Positions 5,104 through 32,202 of a stretch of DNA of 64,000 bases are shown one piece after another; the first letter of the stretch is position 1; each line of letters starts with the position of its first letter. Below the pieces are notes generated by a model. The model did no database searches and was not told the DNA's origin. It was given only the letters and a program-made list of their open reading frames with translations. The translations under genes and the position numbers were made by a program. Origin of the DNA: Streptomyces sp. NBC_00358 (lineage in GTDB: Bacteria > Actinomycetota > Actinomycetes > Streptomycetales > Streptomycetaceae); assembly GCF_036099295.1 (NCBI RefSeq), contig NZ_CP107976.1, positions 8,122,001-8,186,000 on the forward strand. Direction: 5' to 3'.

Positions 5104-5575
5104 TCGGCCGGTCCCGGCCCGGGGCGGGCAGGTGCCCCCTGCCGGGAGGTCCGGGGCAATCCGGAAGTGCCCGGCCCGTGGCCCGCTCGAACGGTCGGTG
5201 TCGGGCGGGGCCCGGTCGGGCAGGTGGTGCTGGTCTCCTGGACGGGCCGAATGAGCTGGGGCGCGATGTCGGGATCGGTGTGCGGGGTGGGTCCTGCGAC
5301 GGGTCGGACCCTGTGTGCCGCATGGGGCGGGTGGTGCGTATGAACCCGTGTATCGGGTGGGGCCAGTGGGGGGCTCGGGACCGGTGCGCCGGGTCGGGTC
5401 CGTGGCGGTCGGACGAAGGCGGCGGGTCGGATGAAGGTGGCTGGTCGGGCGAAGACGCCGGGTCGAACGAAGGCGGCGGGTCGGATGAAGGTGGCTGGTC
5501 GGGCGAAGGCGACGGGTCGGACGAAGGTGGCTGGTCCACCCGTGACTCCGTCCGCACTCCGTAGTTGATCCGGGC
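5104..5575. other. Non-coding gap containing tandem repeats
   Basis: No convincing gene is present. A 128-codon open frame on the plus strand (5178-5564) only reflects the 18-bp repeats and has no recognisable start region. Most of the gap is GT/GC-rich simple sequence leading into the repeat block. Confidence 0.6.
5409..5534. repeat. 18-bp tandem repeat, seven copies
   Basis: Seven consecutive 18-bp units start at 5409, 5427, 5445, 5463, 5481, 5499 and 5517. The consensus is TCGGAYGAAGGYGGCKGG. The 54-bp block 5427-5480 is repeated almost exactly as 5481-5534, which indicates stepwise duplication. The array sits just upstream of the small secreted-protein gene. Confidence 0.85.
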
Positions 5576-27250: not shown

Positions 27251-27600
27251 CTGGACCAGCAACAGCATGGTGCTGGACCAGCAACGGCATGGTGCTGGAC
27301 CAGCAACGGCGTGGCCCTACGCCTGGGGTGGCACCGGAACAGACAGGTCACTGGAACAGACAGGCCACTGGAGCAGACGAGGCGCCGGAACAGACGGGGC
27401 AGCGCCGGAACAGACGGGGCGCCGGAACAGAGCAGGACAGGGCCTACGGTCTCGCGCTGGACTGGAGAGAGCAGGGGCCTACGGCCTGGCGTGACGCTGG
27501 ACCGGCGAGAGCAGGGGCCTCGGCCTGGCGCGGTGCTGGACCGGGCATGGCGGGCCTGCGGCCTGGCGTGGTGCTGGACCGGGCATGGCAAGGGGCCCAC
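27251..27600. repeat. Mosaic of three short tandem repeat families
   Basis: Three 22-bp copies start at 27251, 27273 and 27295 (CTGGACCAGCAACRGCATGG). Next, from about 27330 to 27440, come several copies of a unit containing CCGGAACAGACGGGGC. Then, to 27590, come imperfect copies of about 40 bp containing GGCCTACGGCCTGGCG and GTGCTGGACCGGGCATGG. No gene is supported; the open frames follow the repeats. Confidence 0.8.
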
Positions 27601-30730: not shown

Positions 30731-31180
30731 TCAGCTCGTGACCGTGATCCGGAAGACGGGGTGGTCGGGGGCGATGCGCCGCAGCTCCTCGTCGGACGAG
30801 TCGGGTCCGACGCCGCCGAAGAACACGCCGACCTCGGCCTTCCAGCGCTTGAGGTAGGCGCGCAGCAACGAGACCTTGTCGTCGTCGGCCACCTCCACGG
30901 CGGTGAAGGTGTCGACCTTCTTGCCGAGGCGCAGCTCGCCCCCGCCGGCCGCCCGCATGTTGTGCGTCCACTGGACATGGCCGCGCGGGGCGACGAGGTA
31001 CTGCTCACCGTCCACCGTGAGCAGGTTGACCGGAGTCGTCCGCCACTCGCCGCTCTTGCGGCCCCGGACGGCCAGGACCCGCGAACCCCAGACGCTGAGG
31101 CCGCGCCTGGTGATCCAGGCCACGGCACGGTTGAAGACGTTGACGGTGAACCAGCCGGGCTTCTGGACGTGTGTGGACAC
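30731..31180 (-). CDS. Deazaflavin (F420)-dependent nitroreductase-family protein
   Basis: 149 aa. It shows the DDN/FDR fold pattern: GWFTVNVFNRAVAWITRRGL, VLAVRGRKSGEWRTTPVNLL, YLVAPRGHVQWTHNMRAAGG and FGGVGPDSSDEELRRIAPDH. These split-barrel proteins bind F420 or related flavins and reduce or oxidise a range of small molecules; the real substrate is usually unknown. It is divergent from the TetR gene, and the operator array between them suggests tight control by that regulator. Confidence 0.88.
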   Translation of the reverse strand: MSTHVQKPGWFTVNVFNRAVAWITRRGLSVWGSRVLAVRGRKSGEWRTTPVNLLTVDGEQYLVAPRGHVQWTHNMRAAGGGELRLGKKVDTFTAVEVADDDKVSLLRAYLKRWKAEVGVFFGGVGPDSSDEELRRIAPDHPVFRITVTS

Positions 31181-31204
31181 GGGGACCCCTTGAGGCGTGT
31201 GATG

Positions 31205-31384
31205 AGAGCGCCGCTCTGTTTTGTGAGCACTGCTCTCGCTTGAGAAGAGTCTGCACCGGATCGGTGATCCAATGCAAGAGCGGTGCTCTCGTTTTTGTGC
31301 GCCGCTCTCTTTTTGGTGCGCCGATCAATGAAGTGAGCATAGATCTCCTTCCGGATCACTGCTCTCCTTTGTGTGCAGTGCTCT
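31205..31384. promoter_or_regulatory. Array of about ten palindromic operators on a 19-bp pitch
   Basis: Sites of the form N5-N3-N5 with consensus NGWGC-NNN-GCTCT occur at 31205, 31224, 31258, 31277, 31296, 31315, 31334, 31353 and 31372. A weaker one is at 31243. Best copies are AGAGCGCCGCTCT (31205), AGAGCGGTGCTCT (31277) and GGATCGGTGATCC (31258). The last seven are exactly 19 bp apart. The array fills the divergent promoter region between the deazaflavin reductase and the TetR gene, so TetR binding in tandem is the natural explanation. Confidence 0.75.
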
Positions 31385-31407
31385 GGAAACGTGGGACACT
31401 GCTCGGT

Positions 31408-32202
31408 ATGAACACCGCGCGAGGGGCACGTGCCCGAGCCAGGATCGAGGTCACGGCGGCCATCAAGGACGAGGCGCGCAGACAACTCGCCGCGGAGGGC
31501 GCCGCCAAACTCTCGCTGCGTGCCGTGGCCCGCGAGCTCGGGATGGTCTCCTCCGCGCTCTACCGGTACTTCCCCAGCCGGGACGACCTGCTGACCGCGC
31601 TCATCATCGACGCCTACGACTCCCTCGGCGAGGCGGCCGAGTCCGCGCACGCGGAGGTCGCCGCCGCAGGTCCCCGGGAGCGCTGGATCACCGTGTGCGC
31701 GGCGGCGCGGAACTGGGCGCTGGAGCATCCGCACGAGTACGCGCTCATCTACGGTTCCCCCGTCCCCGGGTACGTCGCGCCGCAGGAGACGGTTCCGGCG
31801 GCCTCCCGGGTGGGCCTGCTCCTGATCGGCGTCGTCCGGGACGCGTACCGGGGCAAGGGGGTGGCCCGCACGCCGCTGCCCGCCGAGCTGAGGACCGAGG
31901 CGCAGCGGATGTCCGCCGATCTCGCGCCCGATCTGCCGCCCGAGGTGATCGTGGCGCTGGTGGCCTCGTGGGCGCAGCTCTACGGGTTGATCGGGTTCGA
32001 GCTGTTCGGGCAGTTCAACCGGGTCGTGGAGGACCGTGAGCCGTTCTTCCGCCATGCCGTGGGGCGGCTCGCGCACGACGTGGGACTCGTGTATCCGGAG
32101 CAGAGCGCGACCGCCGATGAACCGCCTTCGGCCCGGCCGCATCCGGCTGAGCCGCATCCGGATCCGGCTCAGCCGCATCCGGCCGGGCCGACTTCGTCCT
32201 AG
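31408..32202 (+). CDS. TetR-family regulator
   Basis: 264 aa from ATG 31408. The helix-turn-helix is LSLRAVARELGMVSSALYRYF. The ligand domain has WITVCAAARNWALEHPHEYA and YGLIGFELFGQFNRVVED, as in the WHG-type TetR subgroup. The C-terminus has a short His-Pro repeat (HPAEPHPDPAQPHPAGP) from tandem DNA repeats. It faces the deazaflavin reductase gene across the operator array and probably represses both. The effector is unknown. Confidence 0.92.
   Translation: MNTARGARARARIEVTAAIKDEARRQLAAEGAAKLSLRAVARELGMVSSALYRYFPSRDDLLTALIIDAYDSLGEAAESAHAEVAAAGPRERWITVCAAARNWALEHPHEYALIYGSPVPGYVAPQETVPAASRVGLLLIGVVRDAYRGKGVARTPLPAELRTEAQRMSADLAPDLPPEVIVALVASWAQLYGLIGFELFGQFNRVVEDREPFFRHAVGRLAHDVGLVYPEQSATADEPPSARPHPAEPHPDPAQPHPAGPTSS

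Follow-up and report, generated by a model that had tools for sequence, protein, structure and literature searches.

The intergenic DNA between a TetR-family regulator gene and a divergent reductase gene carries a run of 13-bp operator-like sites at strict 19-bp spacing, which may overlap the predicted promoter elements of both genes and is kept beside the orthologues of the regulator in Streptomyces. We consider it probable that this TetR represses its own gene and the reductase through two strong sites, A and B, and extends from them over weaker in-phase sites by contacts between dimers. The array lies within positions 31181-31407 of the window, meaning the whole 64-kb stretch analysed (G000:C1:8122001-8186000), which comes from a genome of one 9.3-Mb contig. 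It is flanked by a minus-strand reductase gene and a plus-strand tetR gene. The features are listed below, the predicted operators without strand and with their scores under the motif model described later; the stack is the set of orthologous promoters aligned on B.

30731..31180, minus strand: deazaflavin (F420H2)-dependent reductase gene, divergent and the probable target (PF04075, 2.6e-11; TIGR00026, 1e-14)
31205..31217: operator left of A, AGAGCGCCGCTCT, 16.8 bits
31224..31236: strong core operator A, TGAGCACTGCTCT, 23.2 bits, the top score of the window
31243..31255: degenerate in-phase position A+19, -11.7 bits, overlapping the -10 of the leftward promoter
31248..31253, minus strand: probable reductase -10, CAGACT (conserved cAGTsTG at B-30..-24 in 165 orthologues)
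31258..31270: weak operator B-19, GGATCGGTGATCC, 4.6 bits, conserved in the stack and lying in the spacer of the leftward promoter
31272..31277, minus strand: probable reductase -35, TTGCAT (TTGCTT in the stack), with an 18-bp spacer
31277..31289: strong core operator B, AGAGCGGTGCTCT, 21.3 bits
31296..31308: in-phase unit B+19, TGTGCGCCGCTCT, 14.0 bits
31315..31327: weak in-phase unit B+38, GGTGCGCCGATCA, 5.9 bits
31334..31346: in-phase unit B+57, TGAGCATAGATCT, 8.0 bits
31353..31365: in-phase unit B+76, GGATCACTGCTCT, 15.3 bits
31372..31384: promoter-proximal unit B+95, TGTGCAGTGCTCT, 18.0 bits, 23 bp ahead of the tetR -10
31395..31400, plus strand: probable tetR -10, GACACT, 7 nt ahead of the ATG and 118 bp from B
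31408..32202, plus strand: TetR-family regulator gene, 264 aa (PF00440, 8.7e-12; PF13305 TetR_C_33, 2.1e-25)

A direct check of the letters bears out the positions in the original prediction: 13-mers sit at 31205, 31224, 31258, 31277, 31296, 31315, 31334, 31353 and 31372, and the last seven follow one another at exact 19-bp steps. The consensus proposed for them, NGWGC-NNN-GCTCT, holds literally at five of the nine (31205, 31224, 31277, 31296 and 31372), whereas the sites at 31258, 31315, 31334 and 31353 contain a GATC-type half-site. A further weak site suggested at 31243 has to be dropped, as the position falls well short of an operator score in this genome and covers the probable reductase -10; in some relatives, for example L009 and L028, the same position reads AGAGCAGTGTGCA. 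Palindromic operator-like sites do lie between a regulator and a divergent target, although several units are only half palindromic.

The regulator belongs to the TetR family and to its TetR_C_33 branch, with 45.1 bits for PF00440 (cut-off 24) and 89.8 bits for PF13305 (cut-off 26.8). The closest solved structures by sequence are 5d1r (Rv1816, 6.8e-36) and 2oi8 (SCO4313, 3.7e-30); a single-sequence AlphaFold model was poor (mean pLDDT 48.9) and was left unused. The N-terminal arm (window 31408-31460) is arginine-rich, reading GARARAR, with GAR[AE]RAR in four aligned Streptomyces orthologues; in SimR, an N-terminal extension reportedly contacts DNA, according to a title cited in PMC4150764. A reductase homologue is found in 131 of 135 loci (L001-L135, the window's own locus counted), the four without it being the distant homologues L026, L027, L029 and L030. 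The gene is divergent from tetR and upstream of it in all 80 named loci, which are the best 80 among the relatives listed (79 Streptomyces and one 'Actinobacteria bacterium').

To judge how far the array stands out, sites in the window were scored with a motif model built from the promoters of other species. The training excluded the window and nine close relatives, although its sites had been chosen by an earlier model that covered them. Under this model the 19-bp chain amounts to 87.2 bits against at most 19.8 in dinucleotide shuffles, none of 2000 reaching the array score. Alternative steps (15-18 and 20-22 bp) yield 23.2 bits, the value of one site, so no chain forms, and the best-scoring chain elsewhere in the 64 kb has 15.8 bits. 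At a threshold of 3 bits the array holds 9 sites and the rest of the window 29; at 5 bits the numbers are 8 and 18, and at 10 bits 6 and 6. Since the counts outside are similar or higher, it is the phased run that is special and not the individual site. Palindrome symmetry by itself, taken without the motif model, leaves the array unremarkable: the longest 19-step chain of near-palindromes has four members and lies elsewhere in the window, and chains at other step lengths equal those at 19. We rejected symmetry alone as a test of the array for this reason, and the significance of the array does not come from symmetry. Many units pair one good half with one poor half, and the array is a phased run of a motif, not a series of perfect palindromes. 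The window also holds degenerate 17-, 22- and 38-40-bp tandem repeats at 27251-27590, downstream of an ORF in which a NUDIX-like stretch was noted by eye, and, at 5407-5536, a tandem repeat of 18 bp that shows a higher order of 54 bp.

Of 392 genomes of the genus, 275 have an orthologue of the regulator (E<=1e-70, scoring six candidates in each genome). Upstream DNA was fetched for 215 loci, of which 193 are distinct, and removal of three mis-oriented and four distant ones left 186; these regions cover part of the 275 genomes, best matches first, so the sample leans to near relatives. The motif RAGAGC-RSY-GCTCTY lies next to tetR in 186 of 186, each with 2-13 sites of at least 5 bits under a model trained on these same promoters, whereas mononucleotide shuffles of 100 upstream regions yield roughly 0.05 such sites in 800 bp. 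The prospect that relatives might lack the repeats, raised with the original prediction, is not borne out in these genomes. At 5 bits, neighbouring sites are 19 bp apart in 367 of 707 pairs and 20 bp apart in 3, while 18 bp is not among the 25 commonest spacings; the classes that follow, 34-38 and 52-58 bp, correspond to skipped units or to the gap at the promoter. A relaxed model at 3 bits puts 582 of 859 spacings at 19 bp, 30 at 15, five at 20, one at 17 and none at 18. The window, with nine sites of at least 3 bits, is surpassed by 7 of the 186 orthologues, the maximum being 14.

The sites also keep register with promoter-like boxes. The anchor for B, GCA.GAGC...G[CA]TC, was located in 165 of the 186 orthologues, which share a core of site A, an AGTsTG block, GatcGgtG-mtCC, GCA and site B, where the anchor letters, including GCA and GAGC, are conserved by construction. 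Read on the minus strand, the AGTsTG block is a -10 (CASACT). This placement of the reductase -10 and -35 puts B-19 within the promoter spacer, B in touch with the -35 and A just downstream. On the other side, a tetR -10-like box, for which the match closest to a 7-nt distance from an in-frame start codon was taken, was obtained in 151 of the 165 orthologues and stands 7 nt from the start in 103 and 6 nt in 48, so that the tetR mRNA is probably leaderless. A and B are 53 bp apart, a value shared by 86 of 164 counted distances, the window's own among them. The distance from B to the tetR -10 is quantised across species, at 42, 61, 80, 99 and 118 bp: the class 42+19k is exact in 103 of 151 arrays and holds within 1 bp in 137, and 48 fall outside the exact class, 14 of them by more than 1 bp. 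In the exact class the last unit therefore stays 23 bp from the tetR -10; in 102 of these 103 in-register arrays it scores 5 bits or more. In the same arrays, 204 of 233 in-phase units score at least 5 bits, compared with 1 of 3728 off-phase positions.

In the mechanism we favour, this TetR, of the PF13305 type, would repress both tetR and the divergent F420H2-dependent reductase gene. The near-consensus sites A (31224) and B (31277) would be the ancestral core, with the reductase promoter covered or flanked by B-19, B and A. Units of 19 bp would have been added between B and the tetR start in whole steps with the register kept, and protein bound at the last unit of an in-register array would block polymerase. 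Dimers would most likely occupy A and B first and then spread onto the weaker in-phase units, where contacts between dimers 19 bp apart would line them up side by side in a coat, its length depending on the number of units. Such a coat may amount to the filament-like binding, with a graded or very tight response, that was originally envisaged. Release would come from a ligand, for which a fatty-acid-like molecule is no more than a guess by analogy with the relative Rv1816, which binds fatty acids and whose DNA binding is lowered by palmitic acid (PMC6463170).

Strong A and B sites, together with conserved weaker units in phase and a spacing kept despite linker drift, fit nucleation followed by cooperative extension, and the strict 19-bp spacing is consistent with cooperative assembly of several dimers in the manner of EthR. 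On B-DNA, a 19-bp step rotates each neighbour by about -69 degrees, so contacts would have to wind round the helix; because a 19-bp step does not complete whole helical turns, neighbours face different directions and contact is not guaranteed. Further points speak against our preferred mechanism: the in-phase position at 31243 is no operator here, slippage of a 19-bp unit could alone create 19-bp steps, the 48 arrays mentioned above depart from the exact 42+19k class, and similar sites occur in G022, a genome in which no TetR orthologue was detected.

The main rival is a set of independent operators multiplied by slippage, which we judge rather unlikely. Here each unit would bind its own dimer, extra units would add repression or titrate the repressor, and the 19-bp step would be a habit of duplication. 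Duplication itself is evident from whole-unit insertions and from three identical consecutive units in L005, and the tetR/tetA operators are presented as no more than a pair of binding sites for dimeric TetR (PMC3511530). Among close relatives with similar flanks, k is 1 in L066, 3 in L076 and 4 in L075, and arrays grow and shrink by entire blocks of 19 bp. Growth of the array does not seem to be merely recent duplication: the 6-nt linkers are of 123 kinds among 367, and the 93 adjacent linker pairs are identical at 2.24 of 6 positions, compared with 2.83 of 6 for random pairs from other species. Linkers have drifted in sequence and rarely changed in length, which we read as duplication followed by selection on spacing and motif. 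Independent sites would not need a constant linker length, and the conserved weak units would be expected to bind poorly alone; both points argue against independent operators.

More distant homologues suggest how the array began and which protein reads it. Each of the nine order-level homologues L263 and L265-L272 is preceded by the same palindrome in two copies, at a distance of exactly 53 bp, and the divergent gene of these homologues differs from the reductase by eye. In order-level relatives a -10-like box lies about 23-24 bp after B (read by eye, not counted), a position that would correspond to the form without an extra unit, and the minimal or ancestral form was probably two strong sites about 53 bp apart. 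In L264, L273, L026 and L030, GAAC...GTTC replaces GAGC...GCTC, with sites 48-53 bp apart. The helix-turn-helix ahead of [LV]YRY reads SS[AG] in 128 of 135 loci and PS[AG] in two (L026 and L030), five not being read; it is SSA in the nine order-level GAGC homologues and in L294 (the same gene as L275), and PSA in L264 and L273. The Ser/Pro difference goes with the GAGC and GAAC operators and ties the motif to this branch of TetR proteins; the four GAAC homologues may form a single clade, in which case the agreement of operator and protein may be one event. Upstream of L275 there is one good site, plus one partial site by eye. No such palindrome was seen in the 260 bp inspected upstream of any of eight further TetR_C_33-like homologues (L274, L276-L282), and this absence, along with the recurrence in 186 of 186 orthologues, the strict spacing, the promoter register and the helix-turn-helix agreement, backs the original reading of the sites as TetR operators.

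That a different regulator uses the sites, with the TetR gene a mere neighbour, is improbable given this agreement of operator letters with helix-turn-helix type and the position of the sites beside a tetR orthologue in every one of the 186 examined. The observation in its favour comes from G022 (L240, L257-L259), which keeps motif sites and an array in a coding region and has no TetR orthologue at E<=1e-70 (best 7e-34); another regulator and recent loss are both possible there.

The coding-region array lies in a gene of the GFO/IDH family. In the window's genome it consists of four sites spaced 19, 20 and 19 bp inside the CDS (G000:C1:6551131-6551201; L216:2001-2071). Orthologues of the gene are present in 78 of 121 genomes, and 56 were examined. 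At least three sites of at least 5 bits occur in 15 of the 56, namely in 13 of 37 with a TetR orthologue and in 2 of 19 without one (nothing at E<=1e-70 among the six candidates scored in each genome), the two being G022 and G103 (78% complete). GC3 of the element is 0.71-0.87 in the 15 arrayed orthologues and 0.84-1.0 in 24 site-free ones, against 0.91-0.97 for the rest of the gene over all 56. The arrayed element thus uses rare A/T-ending codons, and the array is present in some Streptomyces and absent in others. These features support selection on the DNA of the GFO/IDH array, which may or may not be a target of this TetR. More tentatively, TetR may polymerise from two nucleation sites with one dimer per 19 bp, evolution tuning the response through unit number, and the same coat may form in the GFO/IDH CDS, where synonymous codons would be bent to keep the array. 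If so, polymerised TetR on ordinary B-DNA would wind as a left-handed coat with about five dimers to the turn.

The exact sequence AGAGCRSYGCTCT occurs at eight places in the window's genome, and the reversed pattern at none. The array and the GFO/IDH element account for two each; the remaining four places are a pair 19 bp apart in L217, another such pair in an ORF of L219, and single sites in L218 and L220. Neither these nor the 17 exact-site places inspected in other genomes, where genes were viewed for few, allowed a regulon call. The L219 pair, inside an ORF that by eye resembles a polysaccharide deacetylase, is kept in three genomes (L219:1982-2013, L246:1504-1535 and L250:1574-1605). Dense GAGCGGTGCTC-like sites, mostly at 33-, 19- and 14-bp steps, are found at L255:1445-1610 (G064), possibly as a coding repeat.

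A neutral minisatellite, that is, a slippage-prone 19-bp repeat resembling an operator by chance, is very unlikely. Unit number is indeed labile: on a FastTree phylogeny of 101 proteins (39 of 98 inner branches unsupported) the unit class switches at least 38 times, a count that stands without a shuffled-label comparison. Against it, motif positions are kept while linkers vary, in-phase units score at least 5 bits at the frequency given above (204/233), and the two-site core is present in order-level relatives; apart from the L005 triple, units are not alike over their full length, linkers included. We give scarcely any credence to an RNA element of hairpins in mRNA leaders, since, although sites at and left of A would fall in the reductase leader from its inferred promoter, the tetR -10-like box 6-7 nt before the start would put the units right of B in neither leader, and several units are half-degenerate.

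Multi-operator repression by TetR proteins is already known. In the TetR/tetA system, two 15-bp palindromic operators lie in the intergenic DNA and both genes are repressed (PMC3511530). The present locus is alike in having a regulator and a divergent target with palindromic intergenic sites, and differs in its strict 19-bp phasing and in the number of sites, with nine predicted here at 3 bits or more and as many as 14 in relatives. The claim that the array goes beyond the usual one or two operators is right as to the number of units, which is unusual; more than two operators as such has precedent in SCO7222, ActR and EthR. For SCO7222/SCO7223 and ActR of Streptomyces coelicolor, likewise TetR-family and divergent, three operators or complexes are described by footprint and gel shift, although their three sites differ in sequence (PMC3511530); the text of that paper contains neither 'spacing' nor 'bp apart'. 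EthR of Mycobacterium tuberculosis binds cooperatively as a homo-octamer to a 55-bp operator (PMC9210681) within 75 bp of intergenic DNA (PMC3511530). Its operator sequence is different, and the portions of these sources consulted describe no array of variable length.

Two dimers per operator are described for the TetR-family proteins QacR, CgmR and CprB, cooperatively for QacR and CprB (PMC4150764). These differ in that both dimers sit on one 22-32 bp operator, and the CprB dimers do not interact (PMC4150764). SlmA differs in its role, which is in nucleoid occlusion (PMC4150764); it is not known to act on a promoter array. For Rv1816 and SCO4313 the literature covered shows no operator array. 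Within the literature search, which most subscription papers fell outside, there was no report of a phased, length-variable TetR array, and five common forms of the 13-mer matched only an unrelated prostate study. What appears to be unusual here, judging from the compared promoters, is the number of units, the strict phasing and the length that varies between species.

The orthologous promoters form a natural series in which the same regulator faces 2 to 14 predicted operators in fixed phase, and in which the relation of operator number to repression and to the shape of the response is directly measurable. Such a series would also show if lateral contacts let an ordinary TetR repressor coat DNA, and by what route operator arrays lengthen during evolution without losing their register with a promoter.
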